Source: Alkalicella caledoniensis
GTDB taxonomy: Bacteria; Bacillota; Proteinivoracia; Proteinivoracales; Proteinivoracaceae
Assembly: GCF_014467015.1 (NCBI RefSeq)
Contig: NZ_CP058559.1
Location: forward strand, 2,976,001 to 3,040,000
Direction of reading: 5' to 3'
DNA length: 64,000 bases
In this document: piece after piece, positions 8,423 to 39,857 of the stretch
How positions within the stretch are numbered: position 1 is the first letter of the stretch
Layout: the number at the start of each line of letters is the position of its first letter
Translations under genes and position numbers: made by a program
Notes under the pieces: generated by a model
Database searches by the model: none
What the model saw: the letters and a program-made list of their open reading frames with translations, nothing else
Told to the model about the DNA's origin: nothing

Positions 8423-8425
8423 GAC

Positions 8426-9838
8426 ATGAGTAGAGAGCTAAAACCTTATGAAGAGTATAAAGAGACGGAATATGATTGGTTAGGACCTGTTCCAAACCAC
8501 TGGAACAAATTATCCATCAGAAATATTACGGAGTTATCGTCTGAGCGTAATAGAACAAGGAACGACCTAGAGTTATTATCTGTTTATAGAGAATATGGTG
8601 TAATAAAGAAGTCATCGCGAGACGATAATCATAATGTTGAAAGTGAAGATTTAACTAATTATAAACTTGTTGATAAAGGATACTTGGTCTTAAATAAAAT
8701 GAAAATGTGGCAAGGGTCCTTAGGAGTATCAAGGTATAAAGGGATAGTCAGTCCAGCCTATATTGTTTGTAAATTACGGAAGGATCTGCACTCGGATTAT
8801 ATCAATTATTTACTGAGAGCTGCAGTATTTAAGACAATTTACAACAGACTTTCCTATGGTGTAAGAGTTGGACAATGGGATATGAGGTATGAGGATTTTA
8901 AAAATATAAAATTATATATTCCATCTAAAGAAGAGCAAGATCAGATTGTCCGCTACCTTGATAATAAGCTAGTGAAAATTAGTAAATTTATTAAGAATAA
9001 GAAAAAGCTAATAGAACTACTAAAAGAACAAAAACAAGCGGTAATAAATCAAGCAGTTACAAAAGGACTAGACCCAACCGCCAAAATGAAGCCGTCAGGA
9101 ATTGGTTGGTTAGGAGATATACCGGAAGATTGGGAAGTGAAAAGAATTAAACATTTTAGTCGAGTTAATCCGTCTATAAACAATAAGCTTAAAAAAATTA
9201 ATTTAGAAGATGAAGTGGTCTTCCTAAGTATGGATAAAATTTCAGATTATGGGGAAATAGTTCAGAATGAGCTAAAGCAATTAAAGTATGTTAAAACAGG
9301 GTATACGGCATTTGCAAAAGGAGATGTTGTCATTGCAAAAATTACCCCTTGTTTTGAAAATGGCAAAGGAGCTTGCTTATCAAAGCTAAATACAGACATT
9401 GGGTATGGAACAACGGAACTAGTAGTTCTTAGACCTAATAAAAGGGTGATATCAGAATTTTTATATTGGATAACTAGAACCAGTTACTTTAGAAATTTGG
9501 GAATAGAAGTTATGACAGGATCAGCTGGGCAGAAAAGGGTACCTGTAGAGTTTGTTACCAATTTTCAACTGGGAATACCTGATGTGGAAGAACAGAATAA
9601 AATTGTTAAATTAATTGAAGAAAAGATTTCGATTTTAAGCAAATTATTAGAAAAAGTAAACAAAGAAATCGACCTGATGGCAGAATATCGCACTAGCCTT
9701 ATCTCAAATGTAGTAACAGGTAAAGTAGATGTTCGCCATATTGAAATTGAGAATTTAACTGAAGATGTTGGAGAATCTTTCAGCGATTTGGATGATTTGG
9801 AGGTAGAAGACAACGATCTATTAGCAGAGGGGGAATAG
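8426..9838 (+). CDS. hsdS: Type I restriction-modification specificity subunit HsdS
   Basis: The 470-residue protein has the two-half architecture of HsdS. Target-recognition domain 1 (about 12-190) starts at DWLGPVPNHW; domain 2 (about 225-410) starts at the matching GWLGDIPEDW. Each half is followed by a coiled-coil spacer with the EEQ.xIV motif and the related endings VINQAVTKGLD and LISNVVTGKVDVR. The two domains read the two parts of the bipartite target and so set the specificity of both methylation and cleavage. It lies 3 bp after hsdM and 2 bp before hsdR. The acidic tail after about residue 440 is an extension. No inverted second hsdS copy suggesting phase-variable shuffling was seen nearby. 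Confidence 0.93.
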   Translation: MSRELKPYEEYKETEYDWLGPVPNHWNKLSIRNITELSSERNRTRNDLELLSVYREYGVIKKSSRDDNHNVESEDLTNYKLVDKGYLVLNKMKMWQGSLGVSRYKGIVSPAYIVCKLRKDLHSDYINYLLRAAVFKTIYNRLSYGVRVGQWDMRYEDFKNIKLYIPSKEEQDQIVRYLDNKLVKISKFIKNKKKLIELLKEQKQAVINQAVTKGLDPTAKMKPSGIGWLGDIPEDWEVKRIKHFSRVNPSINNKLKKINLEDEVVFLSMDKISDYGEIVQNELKQLKYVKTGYTAFAKGDVVIAKITPCFENGKGACLSKLNTDIGYGTTELVVLRPNKRVISEFLYWITRTSYFRNLGIEVMTGSAGQKRVPVEFVTNFQLGIPDVEEQNKIVKLIEEKISILSKLLEKVNKEIDLMAEYRTSLISNVVTGKVDVRHIEIENLTEDVGESFSDLDDLEVEDNDLLAEGE

Positions 9839-9840
9839 GT

Positions 9841-13309: not shown

Positions 13310-15331
13310 TTGCAAATAAGGAAAATAATAATTCGTAATTTTCAAGGGTTTGGTGAAGAGGATACTCATATTGAATTATCTGACTTGACCACCTTTATCG
13401 GGGCTAATAGTAGTGGTAAAACGGCAGTACTTCAAGCACTATCAAGAATTTTTGGATTGTATAACAGCCAACGTGAAATTAAAAAAACAGATTTTTATAC
13501 ACAAAATAATGAAAGAATTGAAGAGATTGATACCAAGGAATTAAAAATTGAGGCTATATTAGACTTTCCCGAACTTGTTAATAATGATTCTAGTGATACA
13601 GTTCCAACTTTTTTTAATCAAATGGTTATTGAAGAACAAGGAACAGTACCCTACTGTCGAATACGGCTGACGGCAGTATGGAAAAAAGGAGTAAGGCCTG
13701 AGGGAGACATAGAAACTAAATTACAGTTTATAGTAGTACCAGAGGGGGAAGAAGAGGATGATTCTAATTATGTAAACATGCAGAATCACCAACGTTCAAT
13801 GATTCAGTTTATATATGTACCAGCAGTTAGAGATCCCTTACATCAACTCAAACTAGCATCAAGTACTATTCTAGGAAGAATTTTGAGGTCAATTAAGTGG
13901 TCAGAAGATCTAAAAGAAAACCTTAAGAAACAAAAAGAAAACATTAGCCAATTAATTGATGCACAAGAAGGAATGGACTTAGTAGCCCAATGCCTAGATA
14001 GAAATTGGAAAGCTTATCATGGAGATGATAGGTACTCAAAAGCACTCCTTAATTTTGGAGGGAATGATTTAGATGATACATTAAGAAAACTAGAAGTGAT
14101 ATTTGAATCTATTGATGGTAATAATGTATTTTCAATGCAAGATTTAGGTGATGGTCTGAGATCGCTATTCTATCTTTCGTTAATTAACATGTCACTTGAA
14201 ATTGAAACCAAGGTAAGGAAAAATAACGACATAGTCAATGATAATCCATTCGAATTTATACCTTCACTATTAACAATCCTAGCTGTAGAAGAACCTGAAA
14301 ATCACATATCACCTCACTTATTAGGAAGGGTAGTTAAGAATTTAAGAGAGATATCTAAACAAGAAAATGCACAAGTTATAGTTACATCTCATTCTCCAAG
14401 TATTGTAAAAAGAGTAGACCCTGAAGATATCAGGCACATAAGGATATGTAAACAGAATTCATGTACTGTTGTAAGGCGTATTTATCTACCAGCAGAAGAA
14501 GTCGAAGCATATAAGTATGTAAAAGAGGCTGTGATAGCATATCCAGAATTGTATTTCGCCAAGCTGGTAATATTAGGTGAAGGAGACAGTGAGGAGCTTA
14601 TACTATCTAAATTGATAGAACTAAAAGGAGTTGAAATAGACAGTAGCGGTATTAGTATAGTGCCCCTAGGAGGAAGATTTGTTAATCACTTCTGGAAACT
14701 TTTAAAGCAGCTAGATATCCCGTTTATAACTTTGCTTGACTTGGATTTAGAGCGTAATACAGGTGGGTGGTCTAGGTTAAAGTACATTTTTCAACAATTA
14801 ATCGAAAATGGTGAGTCTATAGAAAATATATTAGGTGATGAAATAGACTTAGATCAAATACATCTAATGAACTATACCGAAAACAGCAGAGAAGAATTAG
14901 AAGTGTTAACTAAAGTTCTAGAAGAATTTAATGTGTTTTTTTCAGCTCCATTAGATATAGATTTTATTATGTTAGAAAAATACATAGATATTTATAAGCA
15001 AATAGTCCCTCCAAATGGAGGACCAAAAATTCCTGATAGAGTGAATGAGTATGATATATATCTTCAGAGAATCGAAAAAGATGTTAAAACCGTACTGAAA
15101 TCAGAAGATGCAGAAGGGATTACATATAGTGCTGAAGAAAAAGAGCTGATGATTTGGTATAAATATCACTTTCTTGGAAGGGGGAAACCAAGCACTCATT
15201 TGATGGCTCTATCGAAGATAGGGGAAGAATTAGCTCAGAGCTACCCTCTCGTGCTAGATAAAATTATTGAAAGTGTAAAATTTTTATTATCTAAACAATC
15301 TAATTTATCATCGGAGGAAATGGAGGACTAG
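13310..15331 (+). CDS. gajA: Gabija-type OLD-family ATP-dependent endonuclease GajA
   Basis: The 673-residue protein begins with the SMC/RecF-like ATPase half: Walker A GANSSGKT at residues 31-38, then SMQDLGDGLRSLFYL (signature-like) and AVEEPENHISPHL (Walker B) near 325-340. The C-terminal TOPRIM nuclease has LVILGEGDSEEL near 420-430 and TLLDLDLERNTGGW near 474-487, which supply the acidic metal ligands. In Gabija, GajA forms the nuclease core and GajB the helicase; ATP and nucleotide depletion by phage releases DNA nicking. The protein is about 100 residues longer than the reference Bacillus cereus GajA as I remember it. The TTG start was chosen because GGGGGAG lies about 7 bp upstream. 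It is separated by one base from gajB. A truncated gajA start related in sequence lies at 35703. Confidence 0.88.
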   Translation: MQIRKIIIRNFQGFGEEDTHIELSDLTTFIGANSSGKTAVLQALSRIFGLYNSQREIKKTDFYTQNNERIEEIDTKELKIEAILDFPELVNNDSSDTVPTFFNQMVIEEQGTVPYCRIRLTAVWKKGVRPEGDIETKLQFIVVPEGEEEDDSNYVNMQNHQRSMIQFIYVPAVRDPLHQLKLASSTILGRILRSIKWSEDLKENLKKQKENISQLIDAQEGMDLVAQCLDRNWKAYHGDDRYSKALLNFGGNDLDDTLRKLEVIFESIDGNNVFSMQDLGDGLRSLFYLSLINMSLEIETKVRKNNDIVNDNPFEFIPSLLTILAVEEPENHISPHLLGRVVKNLREISKQENAQVIVTSHSPSIVKRVDPEDIRHIRICKQNSCTVVRRIYLPAEEVEAYKYVKEAVIAYPELYFAKLVILGEGDSEELILSKLIELKGVEIDSSGISIVPLGGRFVNHFWKLLKQLDIPFITLLDLDLERNTGGWSRLKYIFQQLIENGESIENILGDEIDLDQIHLMNYTENSREELEVLTKVLEEFNVFFSAPLDIDFIMLEKYIDIYKQIVPPNGGPKIPDRVNEYDIYLQRIEKDVKTVLKSEDAEGITYSAEEKELMIWYKYHFLGRGKPSTHLMALSKIGEELAQSYPLVLDKIIESVKFLLSKQSNLSSEEMED

Positions 15332-15332
15332 A

Positions 15333-17228
15333 ATGTTTATAAAAGAGAATTGGGTTGAAGTGGACGGAATCACTTTAGAAAAAGGTGCTAAGGCTGTGGT
15401 AAGGAGTGATAAAAATTATGCTGTTATGGCTGGACCAGGAGCAGGTAAGACTGAATTACTAGCACAGCGCGCATCATATTTATTGCAAACTCATGTTTGC
15501 GAATACCCTAAAAAAATACTGGCAATAAGTTTTAAGAAAGATGCAGCCAAAAACTTAAAAGATAGAGTAAATTTAAGATGTGGGAAAAAATTAGGTAATA
15601 GGTTTGAATCTATGACATATGACTCTTTTGCCAAAAATTTAATTGATCATTTTAGGAATGCTCTTCCACAAGAGTACGCTTTGAAAAAGGGCTATAATAT
15701 ACTAGTTAGTTTAAGTAGAGATAATATTAGAGATTATTTGTTGAATTTTGAAGGTGAAGAACCTTCACACTTAAAGGGGAATATATCTGTTGTTAGGCAG
15801 ATAGATATGAAGGAATTTTGGGATAGATTCTTAACTAGACAAAAACTGCCTTTTGAAGAACCTAAAACACCAAACGAGTGGTTAAGAGAAGAAGTCTGGA
15901 TGAAACTTCTAAAAGGTGAGGGAGGGTTTGATGCAGGAGTCACATTCCCTATGTTAACTTTGCTAGCAGAATTCTTATTAAGGTCAAATCCTCTTATAGT
16001 TAAGGCCTTAAATATGACATATTCTCATGTTTTTTTAGATGAATTCCAGGATACTACTGAATTACAATATGAATTACTTAAAACTGCTTTTTTAGAATCA
16101 AATGTAATAATTACTGCTGTTGGAGATAGAAAACAAAGAATAATGGCTTGGGCAGGCGCCCTTCCTGATGCTTTTAAGCTCTTTATAAACGATTTTAATG
16201 CTTGTGAGGAAAATTTAGTAATGAACCATAGATCAGCCCCTAGACTAATCGAAATTCAGAGAGCTTTTGCTAAGAAACTTAAGGACAGTGAAACAGATAT
16301 AATAGCAGGTGATAAATGGGAAGAAAATGATGGGATATGTGAAATATGGAGATTTCAAGATTTTAACCTCGAAGCTGAGACTATTACAGCAACAATTATC
16401 CAATTGATTGAAAACGAAAAAATAAATGCTAGAGATATCTGTATACTAGTTAAACAAAAAACAGAGGATTATAGTAAAAGAATTGTTGAAGAACTCCATG
16501 CAAAAGGAATAAAAGCTCGAGATGAGAGCAGGTTACAAGACTTACTAGCTGATGATTTAGTCGGGTTTATATTAGATATTTTTTATGTTAGTATAGGGCG
16601 AAACAACTCTAAGGAGTATGACAGAACTTTAAACACCCTAATTCAGTTAAAGGGTTATGATAAGGATCGAGATTTAGAAAGATTGATAACTTTAGAAACA
16701 AAGTTGCAAACTTTTTGTTTAGAAATTAAGGATTTGATTAAAGAAGCTAAAACTGAAGAGCAATTTAAAGTTATTATTATTGAAGTAATCAATTTCATAA
16801 ATATAGATGTTTGGAAAGCACATTACCCTCAATATAAAAATAAGAAGTGGCTATCGGAATTATTAATGAGTTTTTTTCGCCAACTATGGGATGAGTATAC
16901 AAAAAATGATGACTGGCTAAAAGCTATAAAAGATTTCAAAGGGGAGAACACTGTTGCAATAATGACAATTCATAAAAGTAAAGGATTAGAATACGATACT
17001 ATTTTTTTTGTTGGTCTCGAAGATGCTGCATTTTGGAATATTAAAAATCAAGAAGAAGAAGAAACATGTACGTTTTTTGTAGCACTTTCTCGAGCAAAGA
17101 CCAGGATATTTATAACATATAGTGGATACAGAGAAGTAGGAAGAAACTTTAATCAAAGGACTGATAACGTAATTGGATTCTATAATACTTTAGAGGAGTC
17201 AGGTCTAGTTAAAATATGTGATTATTAG
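15333..17228 (+). CDS. gajB: Gabija UvrD/PcrA-like helicase GajB
   Basis: The 631-residue SF1A helicase has Walker A AGPGAGKTEL at residues 33-42, FLDEFQDTTELQ (Walker B and motif II) near 235-246, GDRKQRIMAWAGA (motif III) near 263-275, TIHKSKGLEYD near 545 and VALSRAKTR (motif VI) near 585. It couples to GajA in the Gabija complex and is thought to sense DNA ends or termini. Its ATG follows the gajA stop after one base, with GGAGGAAATGGAGGA overlapping the gajA end as ribosome-binding site, so translation is coupled. The frame is intact. A terminator at 17279-17323 ends the operon. Confidence 0.87.
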   Translation: MFIKENWVEVDGITLEKGAKAVVRSDKNYAVMAGPGAGKTELLAQRASYLLQTHVCEYPKKILAISFKKDAAKNLKDRVNLRCGKKLGNRFESMTYDSFAKNLIDHFRNALPQEYALKKGYNILVSLSRDNIRDYLLNFEGEEPSHLKGNISVVRQIDMKEFWDRFLTRQKLPFEEPKTPNEWLREEVWMKLLKGEGGFDAGVTFPMLTLLAEFLLRSNPLIVKALNMTYSHVFLDEFQDTTELQYELLKTAFLESNVIITAVGDRKQRIMAWAGALPDAFKLFINDFNACEENLVMNHRSAPRLIEIQRAFAKKLKDSETDIIAGDKWEENDGICEIWRFQDFNLEAETITATIIQLIENEKINARDICILVKQKTEDYSKRIVEELHAKGIKARDESRLQDLLADDLVGFILDIFYVSIGRNNSKEYDRTLNTLIQLKGYDKDRDLERLITLETKLQTFCLEIKDLIKEAKTEEQFKVIIIEVINFINIDVWKAHYPQYKNKKWLSELLMSFFRQLWDEYTKNDDWLKAIKDFKGENTVAIMTIHKSKGLEYDTIFFVGLEDAAFWNIKNQEEEETCTFFVALSRAKTRIFITYSGYREVGRNFNQRTDNVIGFYNTLEESGLVKICDY

Positions 17229-18245: not shown

Positions 18246-19564
18246 ATGGAAACAAAACTAATGAGAATAGCAGAATTAGCGAAATCTCAACCTAAGATGC
18301 AATTCACTGCTCTTGCACATTAATTGAATGAGGAGACACTTAAACAGTGCCACCATGAACTACCAAACAATAAAGCCGCAGGAGTAAACCGAACCACTAA
18401 GGAAGAGTATGAAGAACAGTTAAATGAAAACATTCGAAATCTAGTTAAGAGGCTCAAGCAGAAAAGCTACCATCCAAGTCCCGTAAGAAGGACTTACATT
18501 CCTAAAGCAGGTAGTAACAAGAAACGCCCTTTAGGAATACCGGAACACGAAGACAAGATAGTGCAGAGAGCTATTGCAAAGATTTTAAACGAACAAGATT
18601 TCTTGGATTCATCTTTTGGATTTCGTCCAAACCGTAATTGTCACGACGCCTTAAAGATTCTCAATGTCTACCTAGAAGGAAGAAAGATTAATTTCATAGT
18701 GGATGCCGATATTAAAGGGTTCTTTGATAACGTCAGCCATACATGGATGATGAAGTTTCTGAATCACCGAATCAATGATCTTAACTTTTTGAGAATCATT
18801 GAAAGATTCCTAAAAGGTGGGTACATGGAAGACGGAAAGACATATGTGACAGACTCCGGAACCCCCAGGGTGGATTGATTTCACCAATTATCGCGAATCT
18901 TTATCTTCACTATGTACTTGACTTATGGTTTGAGAAAATCATCAGGAAACACTGTAAAGGTCAAGCTTACATGGTTAGATATGCAGATGATTTTGTATGT
19001 TGCTTTCAGTTTGAAGAAGATGCACAATTATTTTACCGCGCATTAATCGAGAGATTAGAGAAATTTGATCTCGAGGTTGCAGAGGGTAAAACAAAGATTA
19101 TCCCTTTTGGAAGGTTTGCTAGTGAACGTTGTAAGGATGATGGGATGAAGAAGCCCGCGACATTCGATTTTCTAGGATTCACCCATTACTGTAGCAAAAG
19201 CCAGAAAGGTAATTTCCGTGTAAAGCGGAAAACCATTGCTAAGAAAATGCGTGCTAAAATCATACAGTGCAAAGAATGGCTGAAAATCAACAGATATAAA
19301 AGCATAACGGAGATAATGAAAAGCTTGAGTCGTTCGTTAAAAGGCTATTACAATTATTATTGCATAACGGACAACTCAATCACAGTAAATAACTTCATGG
19401 ATAAAGTAAGAAGTTTACTGTTCAAATGGATGAATCGAAGAAGCCAACGTAAATCTTTTAACTGGGATAAATTCATACTATTCGTGAGGAAATTCCCATT
19501 ACCTAAACCAAGTATGAAGGTGAGTATTTACGATTTAGGAAAAGAGATTAGTTACATTCTGTAA
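18246..19564 (+). pseudogene. ltrA: Group II intron reverse transcriptase/maturase (LtrA), nonsense plus frameshift
   Basis: The gene starts at the ATG after GAGGTGG, with METKLMRIAELAKSQP. A TAA at about 18322 replaces an expected leucine codon between FTALAH and LNEETLKQC. The second lesion is at about 18865, where DSGTP should continue QGGLISPIIANLYLH: one base is missing from the run ACCCCCAGG. Reconstructed, the protein has about 439 residues with RT domains (FGFRPNRNCHDAL, DADIKGFFDNVSH, YADDFVCC catalytic motif) and a maturase domain (SLKGYYNYYCI). The catalytic YADD is intact but the polypeptide is cut twice. Confidence 0.88.
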
Positions 19565-26765: not shown

Positions 26766-28163
26766 ATGAAATTATTTGAACGGATTCCAGAAAGATTATT
26801 TAGTATATTAACATCATCTAATAAGGAGCTCTATGTTGAAGCCTTGTTTGTATTACGCCAAGCATTTAAGACAGAACTGGTGATTCGACGTATAGACCTT
26901 GTGGCAATGATGATTGATGCTATGGAAGTAAAAATAATCCAAGCAGATTTTTCCGAAGAAGCTGAAGAAATGGATGAAGGAATTAAGGTAGATGTAAGTT
27001 TATCGGGAAAAGCATACTTGATAATCCGTAAACTGAAAGAGACAGGGTGGTTAGAGGTTGAATACCAAAACAGCTCTTTCGAAGAGGATATAACCATACC
27101 AGATTACGCAATTTCCATAATTAACTTGTTATACGATATCTCCACAGAGCGGATGAAAGAATACAACAGCTACGTTTTTGCAACATATTCTGCATTGAAA
27201 AATACTGAGGAAAACCCAGACTATATGTATCAGGCTTTGCAAGCTGCATATCAGAACACAGTTCAACTGGTGGATGAATTAAAGCTTTTATTTAATAACA
27301 TTAGGCGGTACTACCAAAGAATGACAACAGAGCTTAATATTAATGAGTTGCTAGCTGAACACTTTGACTATTATAAAGAGCAAATAATTGATAACATTTA
27401 CTACCCTCTTAAGACTATCGATTCTGTACCTAGGTTTAAGCATGCTATATTGTTGCGCTTAAATGAATGGGTGTTACAAGATGAGGTTATTGAAATGATG
27501 GTTATGCAAGGAAAAAAGCGGCGTATCTATACATCAGAGGAAGAGGGCAAAGAAGATATCTTAGAGAAGATTAACTATATTGCAAATACCTTTGAAAACA
27601 TAGAAGGAATGATTGCAGAAATCGACAAGAAGCATGTGGCGTATACCAATGCGTCCATTGATCGTATCCGCTATATGATGAACTCTGATAGAAGTGTAAA
27701 AGGGAAACTTGTTGAACTGTTAAAGCAATCTGACAAAGCTGAAATATATTCAAAACTTTCAGAAGGGGTACTTGTATATCAGCAAGGATACATTGATGAC
27801 GGCTCTTTGTACAATAGAACTAAACGCACAGTAAAATCGGAAGGGAAGCCTACACCCATAGAAGAAATAGAAGTTGATAATGGGTTAATTGATACCTTTT
27901 TGGAAGATATTCGAAAGCAATATAGTTTTAGAAAAATTAACGAGTTTGTTTTAGAGTGTTTTAGCGGGAAAGACAAGTTCTGTACCGAGGATATGGAAAT
28001 TAGATGTCAGGAAGAATTTATTCTACTTATTTTGGCAACGTTCCAGACAGGACAGAGAAATACCACATACTGTATGGAATTTTTAGATGGAACTGTAGAA
28101 AAAAATGGATATCGATTGCCTAAGGCTATTTTTAACAGGAAAGGGTTGGAAAATAGTGTTTGA
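26766..28163 (+). CDS. jetA: Wadjet system protein JetA
   Basis: The 465-residue protein is mostly helical and opens MKLFERIPERLFSILTSSNKELYVEALFVLRQ, which matches the JetA family annotated as DUF5716. It corresponds to the kleisin MksF of MukBEF/MksBEF-like SMC complexes and would bridge the JetC ATPase heads. A winged-helix-like start, a central helical region and a C-terminal domain are expected. It is the first gene of a jetA-B-C-D operon, overlapping jetB by 8 bp. Wadjet complexes detect and cleave closed circular plasmids by loop extrusion. The type (I, II or III) cannot be fixed by eye; the DUF5716-like JetA points away from type I. Confidence 0.85.
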   Translation: MKLFERIPERLFSILTSSNKELYVEALFVLRQAFKTELVIRRIDLVAMMIDAMEVKIIQADFSEEAEEMDEGIKVDVSLSGKAYLIIRKLKETGWLEVEYQNSSFEEDITIPDYAISIINLLYDISTERMKEYNSYVFATYSALKNTEENPDYMYQALQAAYQNTVQLVDELKLLFNNIRRYYQRMTTELNINELLAEHFDYYKEQIIDNIYYPLKTIDSVPRFKHAILLRLNEWVLQDEVIEMMVMQGKKRRIYTSEEEGKEDILEKINYIANTFENIEGMIAEIDKKHVAYTNASIDRIRYMMNSDRSVKGKLVELLKQSDKAEIYSKLSEGVLVYQQGYIDDGSLYNRTKRTVKSEGKPTPIEEIEVDNGLIDTFLEDIRKQYSFRKINEFVLECFSGKDKFCTEDMEIRCQEEFILLILATFQTGQRNTTYCMEFLDGTVEKNGYRLPKAIFNRKGLENSV

Positions 28164-28791
28164 TGAGAATTTTGAAAAACTTGGTATAGCAGAGCAAGAA
28201 AGTTTTAAAAGAATTATAAACTGGATTTTAGCACATACCTTTTTATTACAGGTACAATATGATTTTTCCAATAACTTACGATATACTAACCAGGATTATG
28301 TATTCGTGGAAAGAAATTTCGAGTTATTTCAAGAATACCTGAACTACAGTGGATTTTATTTAGAAAGAGATAGTAATTACGGGGTAATCTGTTTGACTAG
28401 CTCTTATGACGCAAATAGGCAGAGATTTGATAAGCTAACGACTTTAATGGTTTATGTTCTAAGGCTAATTTATGAGGAAGAAAGGGAAAAACTATCTCTA
28501 TCAAAGGAGATTTTCACATCCACTGGGGAATTAGTACATAAGATGATTTCACTGGGAGTTATCACTAAGAAGCCGGCGGATATTGCCCTTAGAGAAGCCT
28601 TAAGGCGTCTTAATCGTTTTCGGGTTATAGATAAGGCTGAAGGGTTTTGGGAAAATGCAGGAACAAAACTTTTAATCCTCCCTACTATCCTTTTTATTGT
28701 AACAAACGAGAGGATTAGTAACATGTATGCTTTGTTGGATAAAGTGGAGGAGGTAGGGGACAAAGAGGATTATTTGGAGGAACAAGGATGA
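28156..28791 (+). CDS. jetB: Wadjet system protein JetB
   Basis: From GTG 28156 the protein has 211 residues; an ATG at 28105 would add 17, but it overlaps jetA more deeply and its added residues look like out-of-frame jetA. AGGAAAGGG about 10 bp before the GTG supports the later start. The sequence FEKLGIAEQESFKRIINWILAHTFLL and the following winged-helix pattern fit the MksE/JetB (KITE) subunit that binds the kleisin JetA. It overlaps the jetC start by 4 bp (ATGA), so translation is coupled. Confidence 0.83.
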   Translation: MFDENFEKLGIAEQESFKRIINWILAHTFLLQVQYDFSNNLRYTNQDYVFVERNFELFQEYLNYSGFYLERDSNYGVICLTSSYDANRQRFDKLTTLMVYVLRLIYEEEREKLSLSKEIFTSTGELVHKMISLGVITKKPADIALREALRRLNRFRVIDKAEGFWENAGTKLLILPTILFIVTNERISNMYALLDKVEEVGDKEDYLEEQG

Positions 28792-31700
28792 AAAAATTAA
28801 AGAGAATGCTCTTAGTAAATTGGCATAACTATGCAAAAGAAGTGATAGAGTTTGACACAATTAACTTTCTTACAGGAAAGACAGCGGCAGGAAAATCAAC
28901 TATAATCGATGCTTTACAATTAGTACTATTAGGGGATACAACGGGTTCTTTTTTCAATAAAGCTGCTAATCAGAAATCAGCTCGAACATTAAAGGGCTAT
29001 TTATTTGGTGAAACAGGCGATGATGGTGAAACAGGGTTCAATTATTTGAGAAATGAAAGATTTACTAGTTATGTGGCATTAGAGTTTGAGGATACCACTC
29101 AAAGGCGGATGTTTACAACTGGAATTGTCTGTGATTGCTATAAAGATCAAACATTTGATTATAAATGGTTTATACTAAATAACCGAGGACTACCCGAAAA
29201 TCTATTTGTTGATGAAAAAAGTAGGGTTCCCTATGACATTAGGAATTTAAGGGCACTCTTAGCTGAATGGTTGAAAGGTAAAAAGGGGTATGATTTTGAG
29301 TTATTGGATACAAATAAGCGCTATCAGGAAGTAACCCTTGGAAAATTTGGTCAGGTTAAGAATAAATACAGGGTCTTGCTTAAAAAGGCTGTCCCATTTT
29401 CACCAATTGCAGATATTGAACAGTTTATTACAGAGTCTATTTGTGATATAAAGGATAGAATTGATGTCGATCAGATGCAAAGTGATATAAGACAATATAA
29501 GCAATTAGAGCAGGATGCTCTAGGCATCCAAGAGAGAATAACTAAACTCCAAGAAATTTGTAGTATTAATAAGAATTATGAAAATGAAAAAGAGAAATTT
29601 AAGCAGCAGGATTATATATTTATAAGGGCAGGCAAAGCAGAGGCAGAGCGGCAGGAAAATGAGATTAATAACCTCATTCTAGAAAAAAGAGAGTCGATAA
29701 TGCTGAATGAGGAAGCAATGAAAAATCTGAAAAGTGAATTATCAATTATAATAAAGAAACTTGAACAACTAGAAATTGAATACCGTACTTCTGATATTGC
29801 AAAGAGGGAAAGAGAGTTAAAAGAAGGAATAGCTAAAATTAGGAAAGAAATAAATGAGTTAGAAAAGAGTATACAAGCAATGTTGGAACGGATAAATGGT
29901 TATGGAAAAAAATGGTTAGTACTATCAGACAATCTCAAGTCGTGTGGCTTTTCGACAGAAATAGTTGAAGAAGGACAATTACTATTTGCCGAAATGAAAG
30001 ATTTAGATGTGAAAGAAGCTAAGAGTTATCCGTTTGTAGATGTAGCCATTAAGTTTGACAACTTAAAATCAGAAGTAAATGGCTATCAAGCAGAGCTAAA
30101 AAAGCGGGGAGAGCAATTAAAACACGATATTGAAGAGTTAGAAGGAAAAATATCTAATATTAATAAGGGGATAAAGCCTTATCCTTATGAGGTGACTTCC
30201 TTAAAGCGGATTATCGAAGAACAGCTGTTTAAGCTTCATAAAAAGGCTGTTCCAGTATATATTCTTGCGGATTTATTAGAAATACCAGAGCCCAGATGGA
30301 GAAATGCTATTGAAGGGTATCTTGATAAGCAGAAGTTCTACCTCCTTGTAAATGAAGAATACTATCGAGATTCCCTTCGTATTTACAGTCAGGAAAAAGA
30401 AGAAAAGAAGATTCACGATGTAGGGCTGATAGATATAGGAAAATTAAAAAAATACACAAGACCGCTAAGGTCAGGCTCCCTTGCAGAAGAAGTTGAATCA
30501 GATAATAAGTGCGGGAAGCTATATGCTAACTATCTCCTAGGTGGAGTAATGAAGTGTGATCATGTAGATGATTTACGCAACCATAAAATTGCTATAACAG
30601 ATGACGGGATGTTATACAAAGGATTTGTTTCACGTAGGATTAACCCAGCTAGATATTCCAACCCATTTATTGGTCGGAAATCACTGGAGCTTCTCATTAT
30701 TAAGTTGGAAAAGGATTTAGAACAACAGAAGAAGCTTTATGAAGAGGTAATAAATTATCACAGAATTGTAAAGGATGCAAGCTCTGCTATGACTCTTAGT
30801 AGGTATGAAGGGGAAGAAAATGAAAAGTTAATTAAAGAAGCAGGAATAATTCCACAACTGAAGGAGCGATTGCTTAAGATTCAGCAGGAATACGATGGGC
30901 TTGATATTTTGTTTCTGGAGCGTATGGAGAAAAAGATAGTTATGTATAAAGAAGAAATTAAAGAAAAAGATGGCCAGAAGCATGAATTGGATAAGGACAA
31001 TACTCGCTTGGATACAGAAATAGAGAACATGGAAAAAGAAAAGTTGCCAGAAATTAAGAGGAAAGTCCTACAAATTCAAGGTGAAATCGATGAAGAATTT
31101 GAACTTGATTGGATAGAGAAAGTAGGAGAGCCTCGCTTCTTGCGCGAAAGTGCAGCAAATAGAACCATGGCGTCCTTGAAAAGTGGCTTTTATTCAGCTA
31201 AGCAACAGACTGCAAAAAAGCGGGATTCCCTGCGAAGCCAAAGGACAGAAAAAAGATCTAGATATAATGGTGAGTATAAAATGCCCTTTGACATTGAAGC
31301 AGAAAGTAACCGTGATTTTGATAAGGAGTTACAAGACTTAGATGATATCAGGTTACCTGAGTATATCGAGAAGATTAAAGATTCTAAGGTTAAGGCATAT
31401 AACCAATTCCGTGATGATTTTATCGCGAAGCTGAAATCTAACATTGAGACTGTGACAGAACAACTTAATGAGTTAAACGCTTCTCTAAAACAAAGTGTTT
31501 TTGGAACAGATACTTATCGCTTTGAAAAGAAGCCAAGGCCTGAATACCGCGCCTATTACGATATGATTATGGATCCATTGCTAATGGATACCAGTGGTTG
31601 GAATATTTCATCCAAAAGCTTCAATGAAAAATATAAAAAGGAAATTGATGAACTTTTTCGGTTACTGATTTTAAATGATAATAATGTAAGCGCAGAACGT

Positions 31701-32153
31701 AGGTCGGAGTATGAACGGAATATAAAGAAATTTACAGATTACAAGACCTATCTAATATTTGACTTGGTAGTGACCAATGAACAGGGGGATGAACAGAGAC
31801 TTTCTAAGACCCTTCTTAAAAAATCTGGAGGAGAGACACAAATTCCTTTTTATATTGCACTACTAGCTTCATTTTCACAAGTGTGTAGAATCAGAAGTAA
31901 AAAGCATAATAATACCATTCGTTTAATTATTTTAGATGAGGCTTTTAGTAAAATGGATGGAGAGCGGATACAGGAAAGTATACGGCTATTGAAACGCTTT
32001 GAGCTACAGGCTATTTTTTCTGCACCACCAGATAAAATTCCTGACATTGCGCCCTTAGTAAGCCGTAACATTGCTGTATATAAGGGAAGAAAACATTCAT
32101 TTACTAAAAATTTTGATCCAAAGGAAATAGATGAAGTTCTAATGGAGGAGTAA
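28788..32153 (+). CDS. jetC: Wadjet SMC-like ATPase JetC
   Basis: The 1,121-residue SMC/MukB-like ATPase has Walker A TGKTAAGKST at residues 29-38. Long coiled coils run at about 250-430 and 670-790 on either side of a hinge-like region (about 480-640). Near the C-terminus are the signature LKKSGGETQIPFYIALL at about 1010 and Walker B LIILDEAFSKMDGERIQ at about 1046. In Wadjet this subunit extrudes DNA loops with ATP and delivers circular DNA to JetD. Length and domain order are normal, and the frame is intact. Confidence 0.93.
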   Translation: MKKLKRMLLVNWHNYAKEVIEFDTINFLTGKTAAGKSTIIDALQLVLLGDTTGSFFNKAANQKSARTLKGYLFGETGDDGETGFNYLRNERFTSYVALEFEDTTQRRMFTTGIVCDCYKDQTFDYKWFILNNRGLPENLFVDEKSRVPYDIRNLRALLAEWLKGKKGYDFELLDTNKRYQEVTLGKFGQVKNKYRVLLKKAVPFSPIADIEQFITESICDIKDRIDVDQMQSDIRQYKQLEQDALGIQERITKLQEICSINKNYENEKEKFKQQDYIFIRAGKAEAERQENEINNLILEKRESIMLNEEAMKNLKSELSIIIKKLEQLEIEYRTSDIAKRERELKEGIAKIRKEINELEKSIQAMLERINGYGKKWLVLSDNLKSCGFSTEIVEEGQLLFAEMKDLDVKEAKSYPFVDVAIKFDNLKSEVNGYQAELKKRGEQLKHDIEELEGKISNINKGIKPYPYEVTSLKRIIEEQLFKLHKKAVPVYILADLLEIPEPRWRNAIEGYLDKQKFYLLVNEEYYRDSLRIYSQEKEEKKIHDVGLIDIGKLKKYTRPLRSGSLAEEVESDNKCGKLYANYLLGGVMKCDHVDDLRNHKIAITDDGMLYKGFVSRRINPARYSNPFIGRKSLELLIIKLEKDLEQQKKLYEEVINYHRIVKDASSAMTLSRYEGEENEKLIKEAGIIPQLKERLLKIQQEYDGLDILFLERMEKKIVMYKEEIKEKDGQKHELDKDNTRLDTEIENMEKEKLPEIKRKVLQIQGEIDEEFELDWIEKVGEPRFLRESAANRTMASLKSGFYSAKQQTAKKRDSLRSQRTEKRSRYNGEYKMPFDIEAESNRDFDKELQDLDDIRLPEYIEKIKDSKVKAYNQFRDDFIAKLKSNIETVTEQLNELNASLKQSVFGTDTYRFEKKPRPEYRAYYDMIMDPLLMDTSGWNISSKSFNEKYKKEIDELFRLLILNDNNVSAERRSEYERNIKKFTDYKTYLIFDLVVTNEQGDEQRLSKTLLKKSGGETQIPFYIALLASFSQVCRIRSKKHNNTIRLIILDEAFSKMDGERIQESIRLLKRFELQAIFSAPPDKIPDIAPLVSRNIAVYKGRKHSFTKNFDPKEIDEVLMEE

Positions 32154-32163
32154 TGAAGGGGAG

Positions 32164-33435
32164 ATGTCTATGAACTATCAAGCATTGATTTTAGAGAAGC
32201 TTATTGGAAAATACGAAAACAGCAAATCCTCCAAAGGGACCACATCTACAAGAAAGATTGCTTTTCGTATGCAGAATGAAAAAAAACTAAACCGTAACAT
32301 GGAAATCGCAGAAGAAAAGGAACAGTTTTTAGCTATATTAGAAAGACTTAAGCAAAGAGGCTTAATTGATTACTCTTGGGTCCGTTATGAAACAGGAAAT
32401 TTGGTAGATCGGATATGGCTGATTCTAGAAGAAGGTAAAATAAGAGAATGCTACCAGATACTTAAAAGAGTCCCAAAAGGAGATAAAGTTGATACCTTGA
32501 AGCAGTATATAGTAGACTCTCTCACCAAAATAAAGCAGGCTGAGGAAGAAATTCGTCCTTTTCTAGAAAAACAGTTAGAATACATACAACAAAAGCAATC
32601 AATTCCTCGTTTTTTTACTGATGACAGGGAGTTAAGCAACAGTATTTTAAACTGTTTATGTTACCTTGCCCAAAATGAACAAGAAATTCAGGAGAGGGTA
32701 CTCAGTAGTTATCTATATAATGATAGTAAATACTTTGAACGGCATGTGAAAGGAAAGGTCCTATCTATATTAAGGGCAATAAAGAAAGAAAAAGGGGAAG
32801 AGGTAGCGGAAGAAGAATTACTTCCTGAAAAAGGCGTTGTAAAATGGCCTGAGATTTTGGAGTTTACCGGTAAGGTGATAGTATATGTGAGTCAGGGGAC
32901 TCCAGTTGATTTCTCATCACAGCAGTATGGTGCATATATTAACTCACTAACGGTAGTAGAAGTGCAGCAGATTGATGTAAGTAAAGTAAAGAGAGTATTA
33001 TTTATTGAAAATAAAGCTAATTATGTATGGTATATACAGCAAAGAAAAGAAGAGGAGTTAGTCATTTACCACGGAGGATGCTACAGTCCTGTAAAGGGAA
33101 AATGGTTCAGGAAGCTTTATGAATCATTTGAACAAGAGAAAGAGGAAGTCGAGTTTTACCACTGGGGCGACATAGACTTGGGGGGCTTGAAGATATTCAT
33201 AAGATTGAAGGCGGAAATTATTCCGCATCTTAAGCCTTACAAGATGGATATAGAAACACTAGAAAATAATCAAGAAAAAGGTACATCAATGAAAGAATCT
33301 TATAGAAAGCTACTGGAGGAAATGAGAAAAGACATTAAGTATAAGGACTTTGATAACTTGATTAAACGAATGCTGGAGCTTGATATTCGTTTGGAGCAAG
33401 AACAGTTATTATATGAAGTACGCTCAAAGATGTAA
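32164..33435 (+). CDS. jetD: Wadjet TOPRIM-like nuclease JetD
   Basis: The 423-residue protein has a helical N-terminal half and a DUF2220-type TOPRIM C-terminal domain. The likely metal ligands are the glutamate in LFIENKANY (about residue 280) and the aspartates in HWGDIDLGGLKI (D336, D338). JetD cuts plasmid DNA once the JetABC complex has extruded the whole circle. The start could be ATG 32164 or ATG 32170; GGAGGAGTAATGAAGGGGAG overlapping the jetC end serves either. With all four jet genes complete and adjacent, the system is probably functional. Confidence 0.88.
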   Translation: MSMNYQALILEKLIGKYENSKSSKGTTSTRKIAFRMQNEKKLNRNMEIAEEKEQFLAILERLKQRGLIDYSWVRYETGNLVDRIWLILEEGKIRECYQILKRVPKGDKVDTLKQYIVDSLTKIKQAEEEIRPFLEKQLEYIQQKQSIPRFFTDDRELSNSILNCLCYLAQNEQEIQERVLSSYLYNDSKYFERHVKGKVLSILRAIKKEKGEEVAEEELLPEKGVVKWPEILEFTGKVIVYVSQGTPVDFSSQQYGAYINSLTVVEVQQIDVSKVKRVLFIENKANYVWYIQQRKEEELVIYHGGCYSPVKGKWFRKLYESFEQEKEEVEFYHWGDIDLGGLKIFIRLKAEIIPHLKPYKMDIETLENNQEKGTSMKESYRKLLEEMRKDIKYKDFDNLIKRMLELDIRLEQEQLLYEVRSKM

Positions 33436-33467: not shown

Positions 33468-33496
33468 TTGACATATATCTATAAAAGTAATAGTAT
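33468..33496 (+). promoter_or_regulatory. Sigma-A promoter for the DUF488 operon
   Basis: TTGACA (33468-33473), a 17-bp spacer and TAGTAT (33491-33496) lie 75 bp before the first DUF488 start. This shows the operon is transcribed separately from the Wadjet genes. Confidence 0.75.
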
Positions 33497-33570
33497 GTAA
33501 ATAGAACAGGTGTTCATTGCTTTTGTATTATTAATAGGAAAAAAAGTATAGAAATGGTGGTGATAAAGGT

Positions 33571-34194
33571 ATGAAAGACATATTTACAATTGGTTACTCA
33601 TGTTTGAAAGTAGATGACTTTATAAGAATACTAAAAGAATATAAGATAACGAGCTTAATCGATGTTAGAAGTAAGCCATTTTCTATTCATCACGAAGAAT
33701 TTAACTATACCAATTTGTCTAAACTTTTGAAAAGCCATTCTATTATATACAGAAATTACAAGGATGAATTTGGAGCTAGGCAAGAAGACCCAATATATCA
33801 CCATAAGGGGTACTTAGATTTTAACCTATTTTCAAAATCAAATGTCTTTCAAGAGGGAGTTCGTAAAATAGAAGCTGGAATGAGGCTAAATTATTCTTTT
33901 GCATTTATGTGCGCAGAAAAAGACCCAAGTACTTGCCATAGGAACATAATGGTAGCTAGAGAATTTTACAATAGAGGTCACAATATTAAAAATGTATTAT
34001 CTGATGGTTCTTACGAAATTCAGGAAGAGCTTGAAAAGAGGCTAGTTGAAGACTACTTTCCAAACAGAGGTCAATTGGACTTATTCGAGGATAAACTATC
34101 TTGGATAGAAATGGTTCAAAAAAGCTATGACCTTAGAAATAAGGAGATAGGTTATAGAATGTATGAGGATGAGAGAAAGGTAAAAATATCATGA
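33571..34194 (+). CDS. DUF488 domain protein
   Basis: The 207-residue protein has DUF488 features: FTIGYSCLKVDDFIRIL at the start, SLIDVRSKPFSIHHEEFN near residue 29, FMCAEKDPSTCHR near 111-124. The conserved cysteine-histidine CHR end resembles rhodanese-like or nucleotide-handling folds, but the activity is unknown. It overlaps the next gene by 4 bp (ATGA), and the second gene is another DUF488, so they probably work as a pair. The ATG follows GGTGGTGATAAAGGT. Confidence 0.85.
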   Translation: MKDIFTIGYSCLKVDDFIRILKEYKITSLIDVRSKPFSIHHEEFNYTNLSKLLKSHSIIYRNYKDEFGARQEDPIYHHKGYLDFNLFSKSNVFQEGVRKIEAGMRLNYSFAFMCAEKDPSTCHRNIMVAREFYNRGHNIKNVLSDGSYEIQEELEKRLVEDYFPNRGQLDLFEDKLSWIEMVQKSYDLRNKEIGYRMYEDERKVKIS

Positions 34195-34634
34195 TGCAAA
34201 CTATATATACAATCGGATTTACTAAAAAAAGTGCTCAGGATTTTTTTGAATTATTAATAAATAATAAAATTGATCTAATAGTTGATATAAGACTGAACAA
34301 CACCTCTCAACTAGCAGCATTTGCAAAGTATCCAGACATCAAATACTTTTTGAAAAAAATTTACAATATCAGTTATATACATGACACTACTTTTTCTCCA
34401 ACTGAACTAACTTTGAAAAGATATAAAAAGAAAGAGATTGATTGGAACACATATGTTGACGAATTTTCTCAAACAATGGCTGCAAGAAGAATAGAAGAAT
34501 ATATTGGGAGAAAATTTTTCGCTGATGAGAGGATTTGCTTACTCTGTAGCGAATCCACTGCTGATAGATGTCATAGAGGGCTTGTAGCAAATATTTTTAA
34601 GAAGGTGAAAAACATAGATATTATTCATCTGTAG
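34191..34634 (+). CDS. Second, shorter DUF488 domain protein
   Basis: The 147-residue protein has the same core as its neighbour: TIYTIGFTKKSAQDFFELL, LIVDIRLNNTSQLAAFAK and the ending LLCSESTADRCHRGLVANIF, with the CHR motif near 125. It starts inside the stop of the first DUF488 gene (ATGATG; the first or second ATG could serve). Two non-identical DUF488 proteins in tandem suggest a hetero-oligomer. The following gene is 16 bp downstream. Confidence 0.85.
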   Translation: MMQTIYTIGFTKKSAQDFFELLINNKIDLIVDIRLNNTSQLAAFAKYPDIKYFLKKIYNISYIHDTTFSPTELTLKRYKKKEIDWNTYVDEFSQTMAARRIEEYIGRKFFADERICLLCSESTADRCHRGLVANIFKKVKNIDIIHL

Positions 34635-34650
34635 ACTGGGGGGGATACAA

Positions 34651-35295
34651 ATGGAGAAGGAGATTATTGTATTAGCAAAAAGTTCTAAGCAGGGTGAATA
34701 TTGTATTGCTGGTATCGATACATCTACAGGGGAATGGATTAGACCGATATCTAATAATGCAGCTAAAGAAGGTTCTGTGCCGATTGGAGATATTACATAT
34801 GAAAATGGAACGCAAGTAGAAATTCTAGACAAGGTAAGAATAAGATTCTCTTCGCATGCACCATCTAGATCTCAGCCTGAAAATTACATATATGACTCCT
34901 CATACTATTGGAGTAAAGAAGGTAGATATACCTTTTCTCAGGTGTTAAATATTCGTGGTTATGATAAACCCGAGATGATTTTTTATAATGCTTATAGGAG
35001 AGTTCCAGAAGTTGAGATAGGTGGGGAACCTTCTTTACTACTAGTAAATATTCAAGAGCCAACTGTTGTAATAAATACCGACGGTTTTCGTAGAAAAATA
35101 AGCCTAAATTTTGTATATAATAATACTCGATATTATGACTTCAGTATTAGTGATAGCTACATAAAGGGCCAGTATAATAATCATAGAGATGGTTGTTACC
35201 CCATAGGGCGGGATCTGACAATAGTTTTTAGTTTAACTGATGTGTTTATGGGTTATTATTATAAAATGGCTGCACAAATATTTCTAAATCACTAG
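34651..35295 (+). CDS. Dual OB-fold domain protein
   Basis: The 214-residue protein opens EIIVLAKSSKQGEYCIAGIDTSTGEWIRPISN and continues with strand-rich segments (VEILDKVRIRFSS, PSLLLVNIQEPTVV, KISLNFVYNNTRYYDFSISDSYI). This is the pattern of proteins annotated as 'dual OB domain-containing'. OB folds usually bind nucleic acid. Its position after two DUF488 genes, with a strong ribosome-binding site (GGGGGGA), makes it the third member of a compact three-gene operon. Its function is not established. Confidence 0.75.
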   Translation: MEKEIIVLAKSSKQGEYCIAGIDTSTGEWIRPISNNAAKEGSVPIGDITYENGTQVEILDKVRIRFSSHAPSRSQPENYIYDSSYYWSKEGRYTFSQVLNIRGYDKPEMIFYNAYRRVPEVEIGGEPSLLLVNIQEPTVVINTDGFRRKISLNFVYNNTRYYDFSISDSYIKGQYNNHRDGCYPIGRDLTIVFSLTDVFMGYYYKMAAQIFLNH

Positions 35296-35367: not shown

Positions 35368-35425
35368 CCCCAATGTAATATTGAGTTCTTAGTAAAATAA
35401 ATTACAGCATAGGTATTAATAAAGA

Positions 35426-35467
35426 AGCCCAATGAGTTGACACAAAGTCAATTCACTGGGCTTTTTT
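35426..35467 (+). terminator. Hairpin of the recurring hairpin/GCAGGATT unit
   Basis: AGCCCAATGAGTTGAC and GTCAATTCACTGGGCT form a long stem (few mismatches) around ACAAA and are followed by TTTTTT. The inner TTGACACAAAGTCAA is shared with the hairpins at 40159 and 45102. Confidence 0.78.
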
Positions 35468-36929: not shown

Positions 36930-39857
36930 TTGACAACTAAACTAAGAGAGATGACTGATTACATGAGGCGGGCTGTAGCAACTCAAGGAAGTCGTCCCGT
37001 TGATTTTAAGAAAGACTTATTTGTACAAATTACAGCTAAAGAGCTTGAAGAAGGGAAAAGCCATCCAGGTATTTTTACAGAACTAACCAAAGAAAGAGGT
37101 AATGTACAGGACTTAGTACCAGTTTTCATAGCAGCAAAAACTATTAAAACAAATTATAGCGAACAGACTAAGGAAGTTAAAGAAATAAATGACTTAACAG
37201 CTGTATATTTTATCCCAGCGCTTCTCTCAAAGGATGGTTACTTTAAGCCTTATGACGATAAGGATAAAAAGCCATGGATTCCAAGGGAATTTTTAACCCC
37301 AAATATAGATAGTGTGTTAGCTGTTGGCGATTCTAACAGGCTAGATGATTTCCTAAGTAATAATGTAGGGAAAAGTTGGATGATAGGAAACTGGACACAA
37401 TATCTCGTATACGCTAAAGAATTATTTGAGTATACTACAAAAGTTACATATGAAAGTAGACAGCTTGAAAATGGAGAACAATTGGACGAAAATATCTATG
37501 TGTTTAATGACAAGACAATTAATGCTACTAAGGCAATTTTAAGCTTATATGATCATATGCTAAGAGGCACTGAGGAAAACTCTAATGATTCAATATTGAG
37601 AACAAAAGTACCTACTTACGAGAATTTTGTGTCTTTAGAATCTAAACCAGTAAAGGACCTAGTGAAAAATGAACTCGATCAAATGAAAAGACACGTTGGT
37701 CAGATGGGTGGAGAATATCCTTTATCCCCTTCACAGAGAGAATGCATAAATCACTTTGTAAATATGGATGATACGGATATTCTAGCAGTAAATGGTCCTC
37801 CAGGTACAGGTAAGACCACTTTACTTCAATCTATTGTTGCTGACACATATGTAAAAAGAGCTCTAGCTGAAGCAGAACCTCCAATTATTGTAGCATCTTC
37901 TACCAATAATCAAGCAGTAACAAACATTATAGAATCCTTTGGGAATATAAATAAGGTGGGTTTAAATAATCTAGAGGAACGGTGGATTACTGGAGTTCAT
38001 AGCTTTGCTACATATTTCCCCTCATCATCAAGCAAAGATAAAGCAGAGAAAAATGGATACCAGTATACAAATCAAAAGGGCAATTATTTTGTTGAAAAGA
38101 TTGAAACGGAAAAAAACATCACAGACTCCAGAGTGAAATTTCAAAGTTCTTTTATCAAATTCTTTGATTTAGACATATCGTTTAATGAAATGGGAAGAAA
38201 ATTGAATTCAGAACTAAAAAGAGTTAATCAAATAAGAATGGAGCTCCTTACTATAACTTCTGAATTGGGTAAACACATAAAACATGTTACTGTTAATCAG
38301 TGCATAGATAATTTAAGTAAAGAAAAAAAGGATATTCTACTGGATATAGAGGAAACGAAAAACAGGTTACAAGAATGGAAGGACCATTTCAAAAATATAC
38401 CAATATTAAATAGGATGTTATGGTTTATACTACAGTTTAGACGGAAAATAATTTTGGATAATATGTCTTTCGTTAGTTTAGGAGAAGAGTTTCTAGAGGA
38501 AGATATGTCAATAGATGGGATCAAATATAAATATGCTTGTATCTTAAAGGAACTTAGAAACAAGGCTAGAAAAAGAGATGAAATTGTAAAGGAAATAAGT
38601 AATCTGCAAATTAAATATAACCTCTGCCTGAAGGAACTTAAAAACTACCTTGATGATAAAGAATTAAATAGATTTAATAGTGGTTTAGATATAAGTGAGA
38701 TTAATGATGTGTTTGATACTACCTTAAGGTATATACAATTCTGGTTGGCAGTGCATTACTATGAACATCAGTGGCTTAGCGGAGTGAACCAAATACCTAT
38801 AACTAAAAAACATACAACTTTTGAGGATGTCTTAAATCGCAGATATAAGCGACTTGCAATGCTTACACCCTGTTTTGTTATGACTTTTTTTCAGCTTCCT
38901 AAGAATTTTTCTTTCTATGTCAGTGAAGGTAGTGAAAAATATGGTTATTTTTACAACTATATTGATCTGTTAATCGTTGATGAAGCTGGACAAGTCTCGC
39001 CAGAGATAGCAGCTTGCTCTTTTGCCCTAGCTAACAAAGCTTTAGTGGTTGGTGATGTTTACCAAATACAGCCCGTATGGAATATTAGCAAACCCCTAGA
39101 TAAAGTTCTAGCTGTTTGCTCTAACGTTATTGATTGTCCTCAAAAATTTGATGAGTTAGAACGACTGGGACTAAATACATCCGAGTCCAGTGTCATGAAG
39201 GTAGCAGCAAAAAGCTGTAAATACGAAAAATATGGGAATAAAGGACTTTTTCTTAGTGAGCACAGAAGATGTTACGATGAGATAATTCAGTTTTGTAATG
39301 AGCTAGTTTACAATAGTAAATTAGAACCAAAAAGAGAGAAGGGGGTAAAAGATCAAAACTATAAAATTAGGCATATACCACATATGGGGTATAAACAGAT
39401 AGATACTCAGAAATCGAGCAAAAAATGTGGTAGTAGATTCAATTATAAGGAAGCGGAAGAGATAGTATTATGGGTTAAAGAGAATTTTTCATCTATTAAA
39501 GATGGTTATAAAAATGAAGAACCCAAAAATCTTCTTGGGATTATAACACCCTTCAAGGCGCAGGCTGATTGTATTCAAAAACTTATCAAAAAAATCGCTC
39601 CAGAAATTACAGAATATATTAGTGTAGGGACAGTACATACCTTTCAGGGTGCTGAAAGAAAAATTATCATACTATCAACGGTATACGGCTATGGGGAAGA
39701 TTGTTCTTTTATCGATTCAAATGAAAGTATGTTAAATGTTGCAATTTCTAGGGCTAAAGACAGCTTTTTAGTATTCGGAGATTTAAACTGTTTGAGTAAT
39801 GATCCCAAAAAACCTAGTGGTCTACTACGATACAATGTGGTAGCAAAAGGTATCTAA
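36930..39857 (+). CDS. Large SF1 (UPF1/DNA2-like) helicase, probable defence protein
   Basis: The 975-residue protein starts at TTG after AGAAGGAG. An N-terminal domain of about 270 residues (no known match) precedes the SF1B core: NGPPGTGKTTLLQ near residue 289, ASSTNNQAVTNI near 325, LLIVDEAGQVSPEIA near 680, VGDVYQIQPVW near 707. A coiled-coil insertion (about 390-610) separates motifs Ia and II. C-terminal motifs are VGTVHTFQGAERKIIILS near 900 and LNVAISRAKDSFLVFGD near 940. All helicase motifs are present. Stand-alone AAA/SF1 helicases with unknown N-terminal domains are common in defence islands. Which system it belongs to is unknown. Confidence 0.85.
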   Translation: MTTKLREMTDYMRRAVATQGSRPVDFKKDLFVQITAKELEEGKSHPGIFTELTKERGNVQDLVPVFIAAKTIKTNYSEQTKEVKEINDLTAVYFIPALLSKDGYFKPYDDKDKKPWIPREFLTPNIDSVLAVGDSNRLDDFLSNNVGKSWMIGNWTQYLVYAKELFEYTTKVTYESRQLENGEQLDENIYVFNDKTINATKAILSLYDHMLRGTEENSNDSILRTKVPTYENFVSLESKPVKDLVKNELDQMKRHVGQMGGEYPLSPSQRECINHFVNMDDTDILAVNGPPGTGKTTLLQSIVADTYVKRALAEAEPPIIVASSTNNQAVTNIIESFGNINKVGLNNLEERWITGVHSFATYFPSSSSKDKAEKNGYQYTNQKGNYFVEKIETEKNITDSRVKFQSSFIKFFDLDISFNEMGRKLNSELKRVNQIRMELLTITSELGKHIKHVTVNQCIDNLSKEKKDILLDIEETKNRLQEWKDHFKNIPILNRMLWFILQFRRKIILDNMSFVSLGEEFLEEDMSIDGIKYKYACILKELRNKARKRDEIVKEISNLQIKYNLCLKELKNYLDDKELNRFNSGLDISEINDVFDTTLRYIQFWLAVHYYEHQWLSGVNQIPITKKHTTFEDVLNRRYKRLAMLTPCFVMTFFQLPKNFSFYVSEGSEKYGYFYNYIDLLIVDEAGQVSPEIAACSFALANKALVVGDVYQIQPVWNISKPLDKVLAVCSNVIDCPQKFDELERLGLNTSESSVMKVAAKSCKYEKYGNKGLFLSEHRRCYDEIIQFCNELVYNSKLEPKREKGVKDQNYKIRHIPHMGYKQIDTQKSSKKCGSRFNYKEAEEIVLWVKENFSSIKDGYKNEEPKNLLGIITPFKAQADCIQKLIKKIAPEITEYISVGTVHTFQGAERKIIILSTVYGYGEDCSFIDSNESMLNVAISRAKDSFLVFGDLNCLSNDPKKPSGLLRYNVVAKGI

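Follow-up and report, generated by a model that had tools for sequence, protein, structure and literature searches.

The 64,000-nucleotide stretch of Alkalicella caledoniensis DNA analyzed here (the window) contains a compact operon coding for two enzymes of the DUF488 family, P1 and P2, and for the dual OB-fold protein DuOB, which in PDC-M45 terms (see below) follow each other in the order B-C-A between positions 33571 and 35295 (Table 1). P1 and P2 overlap by the 4 bp ATGA at positions 34191-34194, or by only 1 bp if P2 starts at the alternative second ATG at 34194, and a gap of 16 bp with a G-rich ribosome-binding site precedes DuOB. The original prediction of two DUF488 reading frames overlapping by 4 bp and followed by an OB-fold protein is confirmed in its coordinates and in the ATGA junction, with Pfam assigning the three products to DUF488, DUF488, and DuOB. 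The genes had also been placed under one strong promoter. A TTGACA-17-TAGTAT box with 10 of 12 matches is indeed present, but such boxes are no commoner in this region than in shuffles (13 promoter-like sites versus 11.7 +/- 3.6), and the strength of this promoter is plausible but unproven. The unit ends at a terminator hairpin, which the earlier reader had not mentioned.

Table 1 Coordinates of the operon, its sequence motifs, and the surrounding defense genes in the window.
Feature	Position	Strand	Remarks
P1, DUF488 enzyme, 207 aa, PDC-M45B	33571..34194	+	PF04343 1.4e-14; PDLC04657 1.1e-45
P2, DUF488-N3a enzyme, 147 aa, PDC-M45C	34191..34634	+	PDLC04658 2.5e-49
DuOB, dual OB-fold protein, 214 aa, PDC-M45A	34651..35295	+	PF22557 6.8e-57; PDLC04653 1e-37
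Candidate sigma-70-type promoter TTGACA-17-TAGTAT	33468..33496	+	10/12 matches; suggestive only
P1 predicted catalytic motif CAEKDPSTCHR, residues 114-124	33910..33942	+	Motif in 86/86 P1 relatives
P2 predicted catalytic motif CSESTADRCHR, residues 119-129	34545..34577	+	Both Cys, His, and Arg invariant in 15 aligned relatives
P1 tail motif QLDLF, residues 168-172	34072..34086	+	Exact fit to beta-clamp (DnaN) consensus QL[S/D]LF
Intrinsic terminator, long hairpin then T-run	35424..35466	+	dG -24 kcal/mol, z -6.3, 0/200 shuffles as stable
Type I RM	6314-12804		Upstream of trio
Complete Gabija GajA-GajB pair	13310-17228	+	Directly after type I RM
Wadjet I	26766-33435		Upstream of trio
Mokosh MkoC-like SF1 helicase	36930-39857	+	Downstream of trio; model matched to 963 of 1136, C-terminal part missing

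P1 passes the Pfam cut-off for PF04343 and P2 those for both PF04343 and PF22751 (DUF488, E 1.9e-16; DUF488-N3a, E 3.1e-11), while the PF22557 match of DuOB is full-length (positions 1-210 of 210). The CHR motif originally noted in both DUF488 proteins proves to be part of a C-x-E-x(5)-CHR signature, intact in both window enzymes and conserved in all P1 relatives and in 133 of the 135 P2 relatives. Pfam holds models for DUF488-N3a, DUF488-N3i, DuOB, and mSLOG, so the families have been described before, presumably in the 2023 rhodanese-phosphatase superfamily classification of Burroughs and colleagues (NAR Genom Bioinform). That work reportedly predicts DNA-end-processing activities in conflict systems for the RapZ-C-DUF488-DUF4326 clade; its DUF488-N3/DuOB systems share with the operon the Pfam families DUF488-N3a and DuOB, and to our knowledge it mentions neither clamp motifs nor a link to formaldehyde or excision repair.

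Matches of PADLOC models PDC-M45 A, B, and C to the three adjacent window proteins (E 1e-37 to 2.5e-49) show that the trio is already listed in PADLOC-DB as the phage defense candidate PDC-M45, in addition to the presence of DuOB and DUF488-N3 in Pfam. The original description of the trio as uncharacterised holds, but the trio already figures among listed candidates. The PADLOC entry shares all three components with the window trio; however, it is a candidate without a mechanism, to which the exchange of the third subunit, the fusions to helicases, and the clamp motif described below are added here. The PDC class of PADLOC candidates is largely unvalidated (PMC12988326). We found nothing on this trio in literature naming DUF488, no mention of PDC-M45, nothing relevant on DuOB, dual OB, or mSLOG, no functional test of the trio, including phage or plasmid assays, and no established activity for the widespread DUF488 proteins. 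A sequence search for solved structures returned no relative of P1, P2, or DuOB.

In line with the original prediction, the trio lies between Wadjet I and further defense genes, with a Mokosh-like helicase downstream and type I RM and Gabija in the same island. A short RT-like ORF of 184 aa (18324-19564, forward strand), whose best match is a PADLOC RT model and which is possibly a broken group II intron, is located between Gabija and Wadjet.

Using a P2 profile, we detected at least 566 genomic stretches encoding such a protein, and the best 80 of these, which span many bacterial phyla and archaea, were examined together with 39 proviral IMG/VR contigs, giving 119 loci in which the neighboring genes of the trio overlap or almost abut. 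The predominant gene sets are P1-P2-DuOB (52 loci), DuOB-P2-DUF4326 (30), and DuOB-P1-P2 (25), the rest being partial, duplicated, or at contig edges. From these counts, and from a comparison extended beyond the 119 loci to loci on plasmids and in E. coli, P2 and DuOB emerge as a near-constant core, with a third position that can be filled by P1, a divergent DUF488-N3a variant, or an mSLOG-DUF4326 protein. The DUF488-N3a variant occurs in certain relatives from the window's phylum and was found in none of the viral contigs or plasmids searched; mSLOG-DUF4326 occurs in Proteobacteria and in their phages and plasmids. At three loci (L026, L049, L096) two DuOB genes per operon flank P1-P2 on both sides.

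The cohesion of the core is far beyond chance. Among 398 genomes of the phylum, P2 is also present in 10 of the 12 genomes with DuOB versus 0.66 expected (P 1.6e-12), and the two genes are adjacent in all ten; in the remaining two, DuOB lies at a contig edge in one case and is represented by fragments in the other. The trio is nevertheless sparse and patchy, with DuOB in 3% of the genomes of the phylum. It was found in 0/14 control genomes, and DuOB in 0/4 same-family genomes searched; since, in addition, the window's genome encodes no other DUF488 protein, the trio is accessory. This distribution already disfavors a routine housekeeping or RNA-metabolism operon located in a defense island by coincidence: the mixed metabolic neighbors at several chromosomal loci would suit such an operon, but its absence from control and same-family genomes, its patchiness, and its carriage by phages and plasmids make this explanation very improbable.

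Natural fusions connect DuOB to DNA helicases. On the RecQ side, DuOB is joined to a whole RecQ (L032), to an RQC domain (L055), or, on a truncated contig, to the C-terminal part of RecQ with RQC and HRDC (L038); fusions to Pif1, with or without HRDC, occur at L046 and L080. On a viral contig (L119), P1 and P2 are fused into a single protein of 377 aa. The helicase fusions link the complex to DNA unwinding, and the L119 fusion ties P1 to P2. Separately, DuOB is fused to DUF1351 at L039 (10450-12303). Together with the PDC-M45 matches and the defense and mobile contexts, the helicase fusions support the originally proposed nucleic-acid-linked candidate defense module, and we consider it likely that the trio is directed at DNA.

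A second clue to DNA lies in the variable C-terminal extension of P1, which in the window contains the sequence NRGQLDLFED. The canonical beta-clamp motif reads QL[S/D]LF, and its relaxed patterns are Q-phi-x-[LM]-[FL] as well as Q-phi-x-[LM]-x-[FL] (PMC9690074, PMC13254535). Of 69 dereplicated P1 tails, 21 fit the relaxed consensus, compared with 2.6 for shuffled sequences and with 3 of the 279 tails used as controls (Fisher P 1.4e-13, an optimistic value because the sequences are related); the exact QL[SD]LF occurs in 9/69 versus 0/279. No such motif is found in P2, DuOB, DUF4326, or the P1 core. The DUF488-N3a third subunit lacks the P1 extension, and 8 of 9 of these proteins have a clamp-like C-terminus (QLTLF, QLNLF, QLKLDL, QLRLF, QPALF, QSTIF, QLELF, QGRLF). 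A point against clamp docking is that three archaeal copies keep the bacterial-type motif although archaea use PCNA.

The sequence suggests a short clamp tag which, as far as we know, has not previously been noted for this cassette, and docking of P1 on the clamp is rather probable. The canonical motif is shared with SocB, a conflict protein acting through the clamp (PMC9690074). However, SocB blocks replication as a lone toxin, whereas here the motif forms the tail of an enzyme in a three-protein operon. In DuOB-P1-P2 operons, Q..[LI]F is kept in 5/29 cases and most tails are reduced to (D)LF, and P1 residue F172 is nearly invariant even where the Q is lost, so that the motif could partly be a structural anchor. 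A mere anchor of the DUF488 C-terminal extension, which would leave DNA processing otherwise unchanged and overlaps with the other readings discussed here, accounts for the retained LF, but it would not be expected at the extreme C-terminus of the N3a subunit, which in L213 follows a long low-complexity linker, and the other DUF488 proteins inspected end without a clamp-like tail. We regard the purely structural role as doubtful.

The contexts of the trio outside the window point to mobility. Relatives are found amid phage genes on the 39 IMG/VR contigs, where the genes around the proviral copies encode terminase, portal, baseplate, integrase, repressor, and endolysin proteins; DuOB and P2 have no match in 50,697 phage records. 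On one 65-kb IMG/VR contig (L140, 5795-13672), P1-P2 lie in a phage replication module, adjacent to genes for a DNA polymerase and a primase/helicase (DnaB/primase-like), with no recognized DuOB. The DUF4326-type trio is present in 12 of 5426 E. coli genomes, inserted between ffs and ybaA in two inspected islands and, in a third, at the e14 site by icd together with McrA. It is also present on many plasmids, of which the 4167-bp mobilizable CP052514 has the trio as almost its sole coding content (L016, 2370-4028), its other sizeable ORFs being short and unassigned. In plasmid pH205 (L017, 132-5820), ISEcp1 with blaCMY-36 is located between a truncated DuOB and a split DUF488 frame of a DUF4326-type trio. 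A C. difficile plasmid candidate (H35) was rejected, as it carries a lone P1-like DUF488.

Defense enrichment around the trio in other genomes had been put forward originally as the informative survey, and its outcome is divided. Plasmid trios adjoin CBASS, type III CRISPR, and viperin genes, which, with the McrA island and the mobile contexts, speaks for defense, but metabolic genes are among the varied chromosomal neighbors at several loci and solo P2 genes occur in formaldehyde and excision-repair loci. The 147 nearest neighbors match 123 PADLOC models compared with 44 for 147 random control genes, a tally in which the models are too redundant to establish enrichment, and no single family is clearly enriched in the nearest-neighbor scan of the loci. 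Weighing these observations, we lean slightly towards defense as the main role of the trio.

The solo P2 genes bring in the principal rival to this role. P2-type DUF488 proteins, trios and solos counted together, are encoded in 132 plasmid records, 82 of them conjugative. Among the solo loci inspected, four combine P2 with uvrA or uvrB and formaldehyde genes (frmR, frmA, fghA), on IncHI2, IncP, and other plasmids (L226, L227, L230, L232, about 7001-8432), and one pairs it with frmR and a rarA-like gene. A further candidate, L233, adjoins urea-transport genes and was rejected and not counted. In a tree of 148 columns with many unresolved forks, all P2 sequences group together in a single clade that excludes the other DUF488 proteins (100/100), within which the formaldehyde-associated solo P2 are nested among the trio P2 with at least two origins (Acinetobacter L227 and a clade of L226, L230, L231, and L232). 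The solo DUF488 of plasmid formaldehyde-resistance loci is thus of the same family and clade as P2, but these loci lack both DuOB and a third subunit.

This association fits the processing of DNA ends or adducts and suggests that the chemistry of P2 contributes to coping with aldehyde damage in DNA; repair is consequently the strongest competitor of defense. The trio could accordingly be a mobile repair or damage-tolerance module in which P2 processes adducted or crosslinked DNA at the fork (e.g., aldehyde damage or blocked ends), DuOB and P1 serve as loading factors, and the defense neighbors merely reflect mobile accessory islands. The nesting of the solo genes within the trio P2 clade favors such a module, and the RecQ/Pif1 fusions and clamp motifs fit it equally well. 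However, full trios reside on prophages, islands, tiny plasmids, and defense islands, none was seen in the formaldehyde or repair loci, and the trio is sparse and patchy across the phylum. We consider this module, taken as a whole, rather unlikely, and the same holds for repair as the main role of the trio.

A different rival is suggested by the proteobacterial third subunit, in which mSLOG is combined with DUF4326, a domain for which an action on ADP-ribose-type phosphates within viral NAD+ networks has been proposed (PMC9503650). The DUF488, DUF4326, and mSLOG proteins could synthesize or break down a derivative of a nucleotide or of ADP-ribose in a signaling or abortive system, with DuOB sensing phage nucleic acid. 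Against such a system, the trio has no accompanying effector with a nuclease, membrane, or NADase domain, and both the fusions to helicases and the clamp motifs speak for DNA and not for a diffusible signal. We judge a signaling system improbable.

Tentatively, we favor a reading of the operon as a clamp-tethered complex that processes DNA ends or adducts and is probably defensive. The sequences themselves show the protein families, the combination of genes, the enrichment of the motif, the fusions found in nature, and the mobility; binding to DNA and to the clamp, the reaction, and a defensive effect are inferred from them. DuOB would bind DNA, probably single strands or ends that a helicase has exposed, and P1 and P2 would act on DNA ends or adducted DNA as paired cysteine-active enzymes of the rhodanese/phosphatase fold. 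The third subunit, here P1, would dock the complex on the beta sliding clamp via its QLDLF tail, delivering the chemistry to freshly replicated DNA. As accessory mobile cargo, the trio form would most likely target the DNA of phages and rival elements as it replicates, either attacking or blocking it. In favor of this model we count the tight operon across many phyla, archaea, and proviruses, the fusions, the motif enrichment, the defense context, and the mobility; against it stand the DUF4326 version without the motif, the solo P2 genes pointing to repair, the lack of an enriched neighbor family, and the lack of a match in the phage records.

New here are the swapping of the third enzyme, the clamp motifs, the helicase and P1-P2 fusions, the mobility, and the link of solo P2 to formaldehyde and uvrAB genes. 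The more far-reaching proposal of a new class of conflict systems, in which clamp-tagged rhodanese-fold cysteine enzymes would be brought to newly replicated DNA and process ends or adducts there, and the core enzyme would have been recruited repeatedly as a solo gene into formaldehyde repair, is speculative and, in our estimate, unlikely to hold in full. The versions on the 4.2-kb plasmid and in the E. coli islands are compact material, and the clamp motif, the helicase fusions, and the formaldehyde/uvrAB link are concrete clues to the role of DUF488 proteins, which would connect anti-phage defense with replication-coupled DNA repair.
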